Source: an uncultured Fodinibius sp.
GTDB taxonomy: Bacteria > Bacteroidota > Rhodothermia > Balneolales > Balneolaceae
Length of the DNA stretch: 64,000 nucleotides
Assembly: GCA_913057775.1 (NCBI GenBank)
Contig: CAJXOG010000001.1
Coordinates: 434,001 to 498,000 of the forward strand
Reading direction: 5' to 3'
The notes under the pieces are model-generated. The model had not been told where the DNA came from. It worked only from the letters and a program-made list of their open reading frames with translations, and did not search any database. Of the stretch, positions 3,057-8,477 are shown in pieces (within the stretch, counting starts at the first letter, position 1; each line of letters opens with the position of its first letter). The position numbers were made by a program, and so were the translations under genes.

Positions 3057-4649
3057 TTATACACTTTTAGGCTTCATTGGAGGTACCATTTCAACTTGTT
3101 CATCACGTTCAATCACAACTGCTCCAGGAGCGGCCCCCTTGGGCTTGCGGACATATTTAACTTTGGTATACATAACGGGAGCCGATTTCATGCCGCGCGC
3201 CTTTGAAAAATAAGCCGCATAGCTGGCCGCTTTCAATAGGACGTGCTGCGGCGGATAATCCTTGCGATTCCCCATCCGAATAACCACGTGCGATCCCCCC
3301 ACGCCCCGGGCGTGCAACCAGATATCCTCTTTGTGTGCATGGCTGGTAAGCTGATCGTTGCTTTTTGCACTTTTACCAATCCATATTTCAAATTTTCCCT
3401 CCTTGAATTTCCGAAAGGGCGAAGTAGCCTGATTGTCATCCCCACTGCCATACCCAAAATCTTCGAGCTTCTGCTTATTGTCTTTCACCCAGCTATTCAA
3501 ATCAGGCAAGTGATCAATTTTTCCGATTTCATCCAACAGCTCCTCAACCTGTTCAAGTTCCTTTTTTACTTTTGGCAGACGCTCCCTGGCATTTTGATAC
3601 GATTTCTTGGCATCCTTCGACTTTTCATAATAGTACTCGGCATTATCAGGAATTGATTTATTTTCTTTCAAGGGGATCGTAATCTCTTCATTTTCTTCAT
3701 AAAAGTCCTCAATCGTAATTTCTGTCGTTCCCTCCGTAACCTGCTCATGAGCATGGGCCATCAACAGGTGGCCGTATTTCTCATACTCTTCAGCCCGTTT
3801 TAGACTTTTCTCGGCCTGCTGTAGCTGTGTTATTAAACTTTCTTTTTGGGATTTACTTCGCTCTAAAAACTGAAGAATATCCTCTTTGTTTTCATACAGC
3901 CGACGCAAATGCACTGCATTTTTATAGGCAAAGGCAACACAATCATTGACCTCGTCACACTCTTTTTCGCTGACAATATTCAACCACTCTTTTGACCAGA
4001 GGCAAAAGTCTCCCGTTTTTAAGACTCGGGGATGCGGATCATCCAACAACGCTTGAGTAATCTCATTTGTAAACTCCTTTACTTGTTCCGGAGACATCTC
4101 ATCAACATCGTGTTCCTCGATCAAATACGGCAACAAATTACGAGGCAGAAGCGGATTCACTTCTGTCATCTGATTTTTGGCTGATCGGCGGGGACTCACC
4201 TCCTCCATAAATGTAGGCGCTTCCGGTTTGGGAGGAGCCTCTCCTCTTACTTCAGTAGGATTCTTAAAAGCATCAACAATTAGATCCTCCTCGACCAGAA
4301 AAACATTTGGATTCCCACTGAAAAGCTTAAAAAGCAGATGCTGTCCATTCTCAAAATAGATAGATACCAACCGATCTTTATCCGCCAATTTTATATTGAT
4401 AATCTTTTCGCCTTCAAGCGACTCAAAAAAGTCGATTACATTACTTTTTTTGGGCGGTCGATAGAAATCCAAAAACAGCGCTGTCTCTCTCGGATTCGCA
4501 CTAAAAATCAGTCGCGAAGTCTCGTCATCCCGGCCAATGTACATATGGAGTACATCTTTGTGGGGAGAAATAGCAAAACTAAAAAATGCACCCTCAATTT
4601 TTTCTTTTATCTCGCGGTTTAAATATATTAGCGTGTAAAAGTTGTTCAT
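3057..4649 (-). CDS. NFACT / RqcH-like ribosome quality control protein
   Basis: 530-residue NFACT protein. The N-terminal NFACT-N (fibronectin-binding-A-like) region spans about 1-190 and includes an Asp-Arg pair (D92-R93), equivalent to the tRNA-binding DR motif of Rqc2/RqcH. A long charged coiled coil lies at about 265-390. The C-terminal NFACT-R (DUF814) domain spans about 415-530, with the hallmark DIWLHARGVGGSHVV motif. In Bacillus, RqcH binds obstructed 50S subunits and recruits tRNA-Ala to add alanine tails to stalled chains; the same role is inferred here. It heads the aro operon on the minus strand, is divergent from the gene at 4703, and has no SD. Confidence 0.88.
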   Translation of the reverse strand: MNNFYTLIYLNREIKEKIEGAFFSFAISPHKDVLHMYIGRDDETSRLIFSANPRETALFLDFYRPPKKSNVIDFFESLEGEKIINIKLADKDRLVSIYFENGQHLLFKLFSGNPNVFLVEEDLIVDAFKNPTEVRGEAPPKPEAPTFMEEVSPRRSAKNQMTEVNPLLPRNLLPYLIEEHDVDEMSPEQVKEFTNEITQALLDDPHPRVLKTGDFCLWSKEWLNIVSEKECDEVNDCVAFAYKNAVHLRRLYENKEDILQFLERSKSQKESLITQLQQAEKSLKRAEEYEKYGHLLMAHAHEQVTEGTTEITIEDFYEENEEITIPLKENKSIPDNAEYYYEKSKDAKKSYQNARERLPKVKKELEQVEELLDEIGKIDHLPDLNSWVKDNKQKLEDFGYGSGDDNQATSPFRKFKEGKFEIWIGKSAKSNDQLTSHAHKEDIWLHARGVGGSHVVIRMGNRKDYPPQHVLLKAASYAAYFSKARGMKSAPVMYTKVKYVRKPKGAAPGAVVIERDEQVEMVPPMKPKSV

Positions 4650-4702
4650 GCTTTAAAGAGACGTTCTGGAACGTAAAATTTTGAACTTAATAGGTTGAAA
4701 TA

Positions 4703-5353
4703 ATGACATATCCGATATTCAACTCTGTAGTAAACCGGATAGAAAGTGACTTAAATGAGAGAGACTTAACTATTAATACCTTTCGCACTTGGAATGAAGA
4801 TAGAATAAATGCAACGGGACTGGAAATTGAATTTGATCTCAAACCAAAATCCGATTTTCTAAAAGCATTATCCATAAATTTTGACTGGGATCGATTCCGG
4901 GAAACGGTGTTGGCAAAACAGCTGCAAGGTATGGAAGAACATCCCTTTTTACAGGAAGATAAAATGGTTAGCGCATCCATTTCGCCAGCAATCGATATTG
5001 AAATCACCTGGCTGTTTGATGAAAAAGCTCCCCATCCTACATTGGCAGCCCATAACGGTCACCATCGCTTAGAAGATGCCAGCCAGTGGATGGAGCAAAT
5101 AAGCAAGGAAGTCAACGAATTATTGTCCGATGATGACATCATCACGCGTTGGCATGTTGAGGTTGAAGGATCTGAAAGCGGCAAATATCTATCCGCTGTT
5201 AACCTGATATCCTACTTCCAATATACCCTTCAAGATATGAATAGCCTCAACGATGTGCACGATTTTGTGAGTCGCTGCCTGCAAGAACTGCTCGTAAAAG
5301 CAAACCGCGTGTTACGAATTGCAGACCAAACGCTGGAATCACAAGCTGCATAA
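4703..5353 (+). CDS. Hypothetical cytoplasmic protein
   Basis: 216 residues, not recognised. There is no signal peptide or membrane helix. It is acidic, has a mid-protein His/Trp-rich patch around residues 115-130 and predicted alpha/beta character, and ends in a helical segment. It is transcribed divergently from the NFACT gene across only 53 bases and ends just before a strong bidirectional terminator, so it is probably monocistronic. ATG at 4703 is the only sensible start. Reading frame quality (652 bases without a stop, normal composition) supports it as real; no function can be assigned. Confidence 0.72.
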   Translation: MTYPIFNSVVNRIESDLNERDLTINTFRTWNEDRINATGLEIEFDLKPKSDFLKALSINFDWDRFRETVLAKQLQGMEEHPFLQEDKMVSASISPAIDIEITWLFDEKAPHPTLAAHNGHHRLEDASQWMEQISKEVNELLSDDDIITRWHVEVEGSESGKYLSAVNLISYFQYTLQDMNSLNDVHDFVSRCLQELLVKANRVLRIADQTLESQAA

Positions 5354-5380
5354 ATTACGTAACTACAACTTGATTATATA

Positions 5381-5413
5381 AAAAAAGCCTTCAGAAAATA
5401 TGAAGGCTTTTTT
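5381..5413. terminator. Bidirectional intrinsic terminator
   Basis: A perfect 12-bp inverted repeat (arms 5381-5392 and 5402-5413, loop of 9) has A6 on one side and T6 on the other, so it can terminate both the plus-strand gene ending at 5353 and the minus-strand mini-gene ending at 5433. Confidence 0.9.
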
Positions 5414-5432
5414 GCAAAATCTTATCTTAACA

Positions 5433-5522
5433 CTATTTCTTTTTGTGTCGATTTTTACGCAACCGTTTTTTGCGCTTATGCTTAGCAATTTTTGATCGTT
5501 TTCTTTTCTTTCCACTTGGCAT
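5433..5522 (-). CDS. 29-residue basic AURKAIP1/COX24-like (mS38/bS22-type) putative ribosomal protein
   Basis: A tiny gene encoding MPSGKKRKRSK...RHKKK, 29 residues with about 19 Lys/Arg/His and no acidic residue. The K-K-R-K-R-x-K-x-x-K-H-K-x-K-K-R spacing resembles the AURKAIP1/COX24 C-terminal signature of mitochondrial mS38 and mycobacterial bS22. Very small, very basic ribosomal proteins are also known in Bacteroidota. A textbook SD (GAGGTGA, 5528-5534) sits 5 bases before the ATG, and the terminator at 5381-5413 follows. It lies about 120 bases downstream of HU on the same strand. The family call comes from recalled consensus; ribosome association is inference. Confidence 0.75.
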   Translation of the reverse strand: MPSGKKRKRSKIAKHKRKKRLRKNRHKKK

Positions 5523-5527
5523 AATAA

Positions 5528-5534
5528 TCACCTC
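5528..5534 (-). promoter_or_regulatory. Strong Shine-Dalgarno of the 29-residue basic protein gene
   Basis: Read on the minus strand this is GAGGTGA, 5 bases from ATG 5522. It fixes the start, and it is unusual here because nearly all neighbouring genes lack an SD. Confidence 0.8.
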
Positions 5535-5643
5535 AATTTTTTTATTCGTCGATACCATTGGCATCCGGGATAATAATAACTAATCAAGATACGAATATCC
5601 CCAGAATAAAACCCAAAAAATAAGACTCAAATAAAACGGCTGT

Positions 5644-5943
5644 CTATCCCTCCTCATCTTCCATAACCGATTCATTAACAGCCTCTTTAAAATCTTTCGA
5701 CATTTTTAGCACAGGCACGTACTGCTCTGGCACAATCACTTCTTCGTTTGTCTTCGGATTTCGGGCCACACGTTGAGCTCGCTTTACTACCTTAAAGGTC
5801 CCGAATCCTCTCAACTCTATATGTTCGTTGCGTTTCATTGCATCAATAACCGTTTCCATAAAGCCGTTAACTACAGCCTCGGTTTCAACCTTTGTAAGTC
5901 CTGTTGAAGATGCAATTACATCAACAATGTCTGCTTTTGTCAT
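5644..5943 (-). CDS. HU-family nucleoid DNA-binding protein
   Basis: 99-residue HU/IHF-type protein that bends and compacts DNA as a dimer. Helical N-terminus (MTKADIVDVIA...), then the core GFGTFKVVKRAQR at about 46-58 and the DNA-contacting arm with R-N-P-K-T-N-E at about 61-67. It has a slightly longer acidic C-terminal tail (VMEDEEG) than the 90-residue norm, in keeping with an acidic, halophilic proteome. AAAGGTGA (5950-5957) is a strong SD 6 bases before the ATG. Upstream DNA is AT-rich, as expected for a strongly expressed gene. Confidence 0.95.
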   Translation of the reverse strand: MTKADIVDVIASSTGLTKVETEAVVNGFMETVIDAMKRNEHIELRGFGTFKVVKRAQRVARNPKTNEEVIVPEQYVPVLKMSKDFKEAVNESVMEDEEG

Positions 5944-6159
5944 ATAACGTCACCTTTTTATAATCACTATTAACCATTGTTCCTTTTAAATATAAGTACA
6001 TTAATCAACTATAACGATTGCACTTACATATAATCATTTTAACGTTTTTTAATGGTTTGTCATAGCAGATTATCAATTAAACTTAAAAAATTCGAAAATC
6101 TTTTTATACCTTCCGCTTGATTGTTTCTAAAAAATAACCACAAGAATATTTATTAAAAC

Positions 6160-7830
6160 ATGGAAACATTTGATCAAATTATAAGCTGGCTTGTAGATCT
6201 CATCTGGAATACTCCCGAAGCCATGCCCGCCATGGTGGTCATATTATTGGCCTTCGGAATCTATATAACAGTACGTTTAGGCTTTATTCAAATTCGAAGA
6301 TTCGGTCACGGACTCAAAGTTGTAACCGGCTTTTATGATGATCCTGAAGACGAGGGGGACATTAATCACTTTCAAGCTCTAACCACAGCCCTGTCGGCAA
6401 CGGTAGGTATTGGTAACATTGCGGGGGTAGCACTTGCCATACACTACGGTGGACCGGGCGCATTATTCTGGATGTGGGTAACAGCTTTATTTGGAATGGC
6501 GATCAAATTTACCGAGGTAACACTGGCTCAAGAATATCGAGGATCAAATCCTGATGGTACCGTCTCAGGCGGACCGATGTACTATATTGAAAAAGGACTT
6601 GGAGAAAACTGGAAATGGTTGGCTATAGCATTTGCCATTTCTGCTGCTATTTGTGCATTTCTTACCGGTAATGCCGTACAGGCCAATACGGTTGCCGATG
6701 TTATGAAAACGGATTTTCAAATTCCCGTTTGGATAACAGGACTTATTACAGCCAGTTTAGTTGCAGCTGTTGTTCTTGGCGGTATTAAACGAATTGGAAA
6801 AGTAACATCGCGCCTCGTCCCATTTATGGGCATTATCTATGTATTAGGCGCTTTAGTTATTCTTATGATCCACTACGATGCTGTCATTCCTTCACTTGTG
6901 GCTATTGTCAGCAACGCTTTTAATCCAACAGCCGGAGCCTTGGGCGTTGGCTCGGGAGCGCTGATATTTACACTGAGCTACGGTGTTCAGCGAGGCTTAT
7001 TCTCTAACGAAGCAGGCCAGGGATCAGCTCCTATTGCCCACTCGGCAGCAAAAACCGACCAGCCTGTTCGCGAAGGTGTTGTTGCACTGCTCGAGCCTTT
7101 TATTGATACCCTTGTTATCTGTACAATGACCGGACTGGTAATTATTTCTACCGGTGCTTGGGATATGCAGCATAAATCATCCATTGATCCCACTGCTGAC
7201 ATTGTCTCCTACACCTACACCCAAACAACGGATGGCACAGAACAGGCCGAAGATGCGCCCGTGCTTTATTTTGAAAACGGAGTACCTACCAATGGAGAAA
7301 TGACACACTATGAGGCTCCTGTTGACACAATGTTTACTGATGAAGCCTACACTACGCCATTTAACGGTCGTATTGAATTGTCGCCACGACAAAACAACGA
7401 CAGCTATCAAGGGACTGCCGTATATTCTTCTGATGATTCTCAATTGAATAATCTCCACGGTGGAGTCGTTCAAAACGGTGCCCCACTGACATCAGCCGCT
7501 TTTGAACGGGGATTAGCACCTATTTTCCCGGGTGGCGGATATCTGGTGACTTTTGCCGTGCTTCTGTTTGCTATATCAACTTCCATAAGCTGGAGTTACT
7601 ACGGCGACCGTGCCGCGCAATATCTGTTCGGCTTTGAGTCCATCTTCTGGTACCGCCTCGCTTTTGTAGGAATGCACTTTTTCGGCGCTATTGTTACTCT
7701 CACGACCATCTGGGCGTTCGGTGATGTGATGCTGGGTCTGATGGCCTTCTTCAACATCATTGCACTTTTTGCTCTGTCAGGAGTTGCTTACAAAATCACC
7801 AAGAAATACTTTGAAAATCCAGATGTATAA
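6160..7830 (+). CDS. Sodium:alanine/glycine symporter (AGCS family) with large extracytoplasmic insertion
   Basis: Na+-coupled amino-acid importer of the inner membrane. The AGCS signature is clear: ALSATVGIGNIAGVA at about 81-95, GMAIKFTEV at about 114-122, SGGPMYYIEKGLG at about 136-148, and SNEAGQGSAP near 285. At 556 residues it is about 100 longer than usual. The excess is one hydrophilic, acidic block at about 338-432, between a helix ending STGAW and the resuming GGVVQNGAPLTSAAF segment, so it is probably an extracytoplasmic loop. The gene starts an apparent operon; upp follows after 11 bases. Substrate is inferred from family. Confidence 0.93.
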   Translation: METFDQIISWLVDLIWNTPEAMPAMVVILLAFGIYITVRLGFIQIRRFGHGLKVVTGFYDDPEDEGDINHFQALTTALSATVGIGNIAGVALAIHYGGPGALFWMWVTALFGMAIKFTEVTLAQEYRGSNPDGTVSGGPMYYIEKGLGENWKWLAIAFAISAAICAFLTGNAVQANTVADVMKTDFQIPVWITGLITASLVAAVVLGGIKRIGKVTSRLVPFMGIIYVLGALVILMIHYDAVIPSLVAIVSNAFNPTAGALGVGSGALIFTLSYGVQRGLFSNEAGQGSAPIAHSAAKTDQPVREGVVALLEPFIDTLVICTMTGLVIISTGAWDMQHKSSIDPTADIVSYTYTQTTDGTEQAEDAPVLYFENGVPTNGEMTHYEAPVDTMFTDEAYTTPFNGRIELSPRQNNDSYQGTAVYSSDDSQLNNLHGGVVQNGAPLTSAAFERGLAPIFPGGGYLVTFAVLLFAISTSISWSYYGDRAAQYLFGFESIFWYRLAFVGMHFFGAIVTLTTIWAFGDVMLGLMAFFNIIALFALSGVAYKITKKYFENPDV

Positions 7831-7841
7831 CCACAACTATT

Positions 7842-8477
7842 ATGTCTGATTTCAAGAATGTAACGCTAATAAAACATCCCGTAGTAAACAGAGATTTAAC
7901 GATACTGCGGGATGTAAATACTAACATCTCTGAATTCAGGGCAGCTATTAAGCGTATAGCTATGATTCTGGCTTATCACGCGCTAAAGGAACTGCCCCAA
8001 ACTACCTTTGAGGTCGAAACACCGATCCAAAAAACAACCGGATACGATATTGATCAGGGGGTGATGGTGGTTCCGATATTACGTGCCGGTCTCAGCCTTT
8101 CTGACGCCCTCCTTCAATTTATTCCAGATGCCCGCGTTGGCCATCTGGGTATGGAACGAGATGAGAAAACACATCAGCCGGAAGACTATTATTCCAACAT
8201 TCCAGATGGCGTTGAAGATGACATGGTGCTTGTGGTAGATCCCATGTTGGCAACCGGGGGCAGTGCCCACGATGCCCTCTCCTTTTTAGAAGATAAGGGA
8301 GCACAACATTTACGGTTTGTGTCATTAATTTGTGCGCCTGAGGGATTGAAAAAACTCGAAGAAGAACATCCCAATGTACATACCATAACCGCAGCTATCG
8401 ATGATCATTTAAACGATGATGCCTTTATCGTACCCGGATTAGGTGATGCAGGTGACCGATATTTTGGAACAACATAA
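7842..8477 (+). CDS. upp: Uracil phosphoribosyltransferase
   Basis: Pyrimidine salvage enzyme converting uracil plus PRPP to UMP. 211 residues, full length. The PRPP-binding loop VVDPMLATGGSAHDAL is at about 129-144, the substrate-proximal GVMVVPILRAGL segment at about 71-82, and the C-terminal uracil-binding PGLGDAGDRYFGT motif is intact. It sits 11 bases after the symporter gene, and its 3' end overlaps the predicted lptC start by about 30 bases. Confidence 0.96.
   Translation: MSDFKNVTLIKHPVVNRDLTILRDVNTNISEFRAAIKRIAMILAYHALKELPQTTFEVETPIQKTTGYDIDQGVMVVPILRAGLSLSDALLQFIPDARVGHLGMERDEKTHQPEDYYSNIPDGVEDDMVLVVDPMLATGGSAHDALSFLEDKGAQHLRFVSLICAPEGLKKLEEEHPNVHTITAAIDDHLNDDAFIVPGLGDAGDRYFGTT

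Follow-up and report, generated by a model that had tools for sequence, protein, structure and literature searches.

Examination of a 64,000-nucleotide stretch of DNA from an uncultured Fodinibius sp. (hereafter the window) revealed, on the minus strand, a short gene for a basic peptide that lies between an HU gene and a convergent gene (Table 1). Its translation, MPSGKKRKRSKIAKHKRKKRLRKNRHKKK followed by the stop, contains 18 Lys or Arg among 29 residues, or 20 when His is included. The gene is present in a single copy in the window genome, and its Shine-Dalgarno (SD) sequence is predicted by RNAduplex to pair with the 16S rRNA tail at -12.0 kcal/mol.

Table 1. Features of the bS22 locus, with their positions in the window.
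Feature	Position	Strand	Remarks
Convergent gene, conserved neighbour	4703..5353	plus	216 aa; nothing above Pfam or NCBIfam cut-off
Terminator-like hairpin, 13 bp, 7-nt loop, U-rich arm	5381..5413	minus	fold -17.2 kcal/mol
bS22 coding sequence	5433..5522	minus	29 aa; ATG 5522-5520, stop TAG 5433-5435
SD match of bS22 gene, GAGGTGAT	5527..5534	minus	8 nt; ends 4 nt ahead of the bS22 ATG
HU-family DNA-binding protein, upstream neighbour	5644..5943	minus	same strand as bS22; PF00216, E 2.5e-31
SD match of HU gene, AAAGGTGA	5950..5957	minus	-8.2 kcal/mol

A longer open reading frame (ORF) in the same frame begins at 5564, upstream of this ATG. No in-frame ATG, GTG or TTG occurs upstream before a stop in 40 of 50 loci from the order (about 3 kb each, L025 and L026 being contig ends); the window is among the remaining 10, and the 29-residue form is preferred because of these 40 loci. 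The leader is no more structured than its shuffles (z 0.14), and five promoter-like sites were found near the gene against 2.9 expected in shuffles. Neither a tRNA nor any Rfam family reaching its gathering score was found in the window. The hairpin is placed between the stops of the two converging genes and can therefore serve both. It has a z-score of -4.84, and none of 200 shuffles folded as well; the terminator of the first-pass annotation is supported to that extent, but it was missing from a consensus terminator scan, in which the sole other site listed falls inside the coding sequence on the opposite strand.

A search of the solved structures with phmmer listed only three chains matching the window peptide, all of them ribosomal and aligned over 28 or 29 residues: 7jil_5 (E 5.6e-8), 9i5v_10 (E 1.1e-7) and 8fmw_V (E 2.8e-5). 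A profile built from 21 of 45 distinct bS22 peptides, in whose alignment 14 columns are invariant and from which two variants starting on a GTG codon were left out, recovered the same three chains with E-values from 6e-15 to 6.6e-12. On the basis of these matches the window gene was assigned to bS22, a protein of about 28-35 residues of which more than half are Lys or Arg, as is the case here. The chain 7jil_5, named S22 or L38 by its depositors (five entries), comes from Flavobacterium johnsoniae according to PMC9976891, and 9i5v_10 was deposited as an AURKAIP1/COX24 domain-containing protein. These two are 30 and 29 residues long, start like the window peptide with MP(S/N)GKKRKR and align with it over 29 residues; they differ from it by few substitutions, such as S10 and K14 in the window against H and T. 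The Borrelia burgdorferi bS22 (8fmw_V), aligned over 28 residues, belongs to another phylum and has a GUG start, and its gene is described in PMC10618245 as unannotated in its own genome. A literature search on ribosomal protein S22 in Flavobacterium found no paper.

The Pfam model COX24_C (PF08213) scored 13.1 bits on the window peptide against a gathering cut-off of 23, and NCBIfam gave no match. Among the three solved chains, one had a Pfam match, at 11.8 bits and below the cut-off, and none matched NCBIfam. Since solved bS22 chains fail its cut-off too, the COX24_C model does not define bS22, and the window peptide is not classed under it; the limited reach of both libraries may be the reason why the gene gets skipped. 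The first-pass annotation had seen in the product a likeness to mS38/bS22-type ribosomal peptides and a possible overlooked ribosomal component. Its ribosomal idea was right: the resemblance to bS22 extends from end to end, although the PDB searches listed no mS38 chain, and the protein is overlooked by the Pfam and NCBIfam libraries but already known from solved ribosomes (PMC10618245, PMC10085706).

In the phylum, as delimited by the search tool, bS22 was present in 288 of the 296 genomes sampled, and in a closer sample in 31 of 38 (window genome included in both), which refutes a lack of conservation among relatives. Of 100 loci, chosen as best matches or picked from lists and in some cases representing one genome under two handles, 98 showed a bS22-type ORF, with 45 distinct peptides and 92 distinct DNA sequences; the two others, L167 and L168, were weak matches (E 0.41 and 0.49). 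When the 49 distinct coding sequences from the 50 order loci were compared with the window's copy, the codon differences added up to 709 synonymous and 36 non-synonymous cases, and differences at codon positions 1, 2 and 3 numbered 166, 5 and 661. The claims of a real short gene with a perfect start and of a strong SD are thus confirmed, the former by the ATG, the ORF, its conservation and the mostly synonymous change, the latter by the 8-nt match and its pairing energy. One genome, G237, carries two copies (L159 and L169), each close to a contig end, which may be an assembly matter. A search of viral contigs with a degenerate bS22 pattern returned four matches, which reduce to a 145-aa ORF and a 17-codon run; both were rejected on reading and neither is a phage-borne bS22.

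The surroundings of the gene are also conserved. An HU gene lies on the same strand as bS22 in 43 of the 50 order loci, in 33 of them within 300 bp upstream; the 216-aa gene is on the opposite strand in 42, and 36 loci have both. A plasmid search with positions 3057-8477 retrieved 13 records (seven with annotated symporters, five without a feature and one without annotation) at the symporter stretch only, and says nothing on bS22. The frequent company of HU is the one point in favour of a nucleoid or HU-linked peptide, the other possibility raised by the first-pass annotation. It is a matter of synteny, and nothing was found in favour of a nucleoid component: the sequence matches are ribosome chains, and seven of the 50 loci have the peptide with no HU in the stretch, one of these (L026) being a contig end. 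We regard a nucleoid function as very improbable. A chance basic ORF, suggested by the short length, is refuted by the phylum-wide conservation and the synonymous pattern and deserves practically no credence.

We therefore conclude, with a probability of roughly 0.94, that the gene encodes the small-subunit protein bS22, that its place in the ribosome is that of its homologues, and that it is conserved in most of the phylum yet dispensable, with at least two losses, or a loss and a regain, in the genus. By homology, its basic helix would occupy a 16S rRNA pocket formed by h2, h27, h44 and h45, close to both the decoding region and the head's neck, and would touch 23S H67/H68, thereby acting as an intersubunit bridge that gives the 70S ribosome stability. 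This pocket, the bridge and contacts with H67 or H68 are described for Borrelia (PMC10618245) and Cutibacterium acnes (PMC10085706), and bS22 is compared with mS38 in PMC10618245 and PMC6582356. The bS22 of Mycobacterium smegmatis and C. acnes and the mitochondrial mS38/COX24/AURKAIP1 are presented in these papers (PMC10618245, PMC6582356, PMC10085706) as basic helices in the same pocket; they are absent from the PDB matches of the window peptide and of the profile, and COX24_C stays below its cut-off. It was proposed that in mycobacteria the contacts of bS22 with h45 influence the mRNA channel immediately ahead of the anti-SD (PMC6582356), and one study found free C. acnes bS22 to be inhibitory to other bacteria, in both growth and translation (PMC10085706).

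The gene is absent from seven of the 11 other Fodinibius/Aliifodinibius genomes: G001 (F. sediminis), G004 (F. halophilus), G006, G007, G008 (F. salsisoli), G010 and G011 (F. roseus). Each of these genomes keeps HU next to the 216-aa gene on one contig, and no bS22-type ORF was read in the stretch that follows HU (L066 served as positive control for this reading); for four of them the check was extended by tblastn to longer loci. No convincing copy was found elsewhere in the seven genomes with an F. johnsoniae-type query or with the 21-row profile. The sole match of the former, in G010 (E 0.41, L167), was not bS22-like on reading, and the latter gave E 0.49 in G010 (13 positions, with a stop) and E 0.78 in G011 (nine positions). 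The same profile found the gene in six of six control genomes that have it (E 1.2e-14 to 2.5e-12), most of whose peptides are themselves profile rows. Used as a genome probe, COX24_C matched G172 alone, with an E-value of 1.07 and a score below its cut-off; its blanks are uninformative on absence because it missed G003 and G009, which both have bS22.

In a five-protein tree of 20 genomes, some forks of which are weak, the presence of bS22 needs at least two changes, and a single group of the seven genomes without it is disfavoured (p 0.019). In the genus the gene was thus lost twice, or lost once and regained once. It is also missing from G172, G219 and G223, three genomes that represent another genus of this class, probably Salinibacter; G172 contains what is presumably the Salinibacter ruber chromosome. 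In G273 (94% complete) and G313 (88%) no convincing match was obtained, and a literature search on bS22 loss in Bacteroidota found no paper.

Two candidate correlates of these absences were considered and rejected. Salt adaptation is not supported, since the more acidic proteins expected in genomes without bS22 were not seen: median pI was 4.92-5.11 in the seven genomes without the gene and 4.77-5.04 in five with it (homologous 20-kb stretches, 11-14 ORFs each). As to rRNA compensation, a 16S match was not found in the window genome assembly, and 16S genes were found in six of the 16 genomes searched. Among six relatives, three without and three with bS22, only 16S positions 381 and 388 separate the two sets; they fall outside the pocket stretches inspected in these six sequences, and no column of the h27 and h44/h45 stretches separates them.

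The SD of the window gene was compared with a background of 362 ORFs with a minimum length of 80 aa, taken from 464 kb of the window genome at their first ATG after removal of those near edges, the control being a stretch further upstream. Pairing with the 16S tail reached -7 kcal/mol in 38 ORFs against 29 in the control, -8 in 22 against 20, -10 in 11 against 6, -11 in 5 against 0 and -12 in 1 against 0, with the proviso that some real SDs will escape a survey based on first ATGs. When up to three starts per ORF were considered and the best was kept, three ORFs reached -12 kcal/mol. Contiguous matches of at least 6 nt numbered 15 upstream of the ORFs, 4 in the upstream control and 8 in a control inside, and in the window itself, among 42 ORFs of 120 aa or more, none had one. 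The genome sample is hardly enriched for SDs, and that of bS22 is among the strongest. The tail GGATCACCTCC is present in all six 16S genes found; the tail stretch used in pairing follows an assumed numbering. A literature search on Shine-Dalgarno in Balneolaceae found no paper.

In the window's family, 34 of the 35 bS22 genes read reach -7 kcal/mol (median -8.2), the exception being L008 of G015 (-4.7); this value is reached by 5 of 15 genes from the order's remaining families and by 11 of 36 from beyond the order. Neighbouring genes, read in 20 genomes (G026 of the same order besides 19 from the family), seldom reach it: NFACT does so in 1 of 19, the symporter in 0 of 20, shikimate kinase in 1 of 19 and the 216-aa gene in 3 of 19. 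For rpsR it is reached in 2 of 29 genomes (G012 left out). For HU, the SD pairs at least as strongly as -7.3 kcal/mol in all 12 genus genomes, including the seven without bS22, and in one of eight others. Among 29 rpsU genes read (G121 and a second G009 match left out), pairing is -12 to -13 in ten, -7.3 in G007 and -3.1 or weaker in 18, the last class comprising 11 of the 12 genus genomes. The SD of bS22 is thus genuine and unusual, and the family conserves it, but within the genus HU has one too.

Two further observations concern rpsU. In the family it exists in two states (L198-L227), with a strong extended SD, AAAGGA(A/T)GTGA, in 10 of 29 and a weak one or none elsewhere. The second match in G009 (G009:C1:1384831-1384986) is a weaker bS21-family match, E 3.1e-7.

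The SD probably just ensures good translation of a small, abundant protein, with no feedback. The SD of HU, another small basic protein, throughout the genus agrees with this, whereas rpsR and, in the genus, rpsU code for proteins also needed in quantity and mostly lack an SD. Control of bS22 synthesis through its own SD, by which ribosomes short of bS22 would prefer bS22 mRNA, adds to the identification and does not replace it; we consider it unlikely. It is modelled on the autoregulation of rpsU/bS21 in Flavobacteriales (PMC9976891), where a ribosomal protein gene likewise carries a strong SD in a genome with few of them. Consistent with it are the -12.0 kcal/mol of bS22 in a genome sample barely above control, the 34 of 35 family genes, the rarity of comparable SDs at rpsR and the neighbouring genes, the weak rpsU pairing in the genus and the h45 contacts proposed in mycobacteria (PMC6582356). 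Against it, the SD signal is not specific to bS22, since HU has it even where bS22 is absent, and bS22 outside the family mostly lacks it; rpsU itself reaches -12 to -13 in ten family genomes, the leader structure is no better than shuffles, and no text was found stating that bS22 binds the 16S tail. The rpsU system also has 9-13 contiguous pairs, and the criteria of PMC9976891 ask for the strongest SD among ribosomal genes and for less than -13 kcal/mol, whereas bS22 has eight contiguous pairs and -12.0 kcal/mol, the latter value being obtained with another program (RNAduplex) and compared, among ribosomal genes, with rpsU and rpsR only. Because HU has an SD too, control particular to bS22 is a possibility only. 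The wider proposal, that the SD is regulatory in the SD-poor genomes of Balneolaceae, ribosomes without bS22, a subunit close to the anti-SD, favouring its mRNA, and that Fodinibius species which lost bS22 are natural deletions with changed ribosome behaviour, is equally doubtful.

The lead was correct and the protein is a known one, so that the identification is in itself ordinary; it reveals a gap in the Pfam and NCBIfam copies used, which recognise neither this ribosomal protein, present in nearly the whole phylum sample, nor three solved chains of it. The absences inside the genus and the SD pattern are the less ordinary results. The SD pattern opens translational control to testing with a simple reporter, and the absence of bS22 from part of a genus with named, cultured strains offers natural pairs with and without the protein from which its role may be learned.
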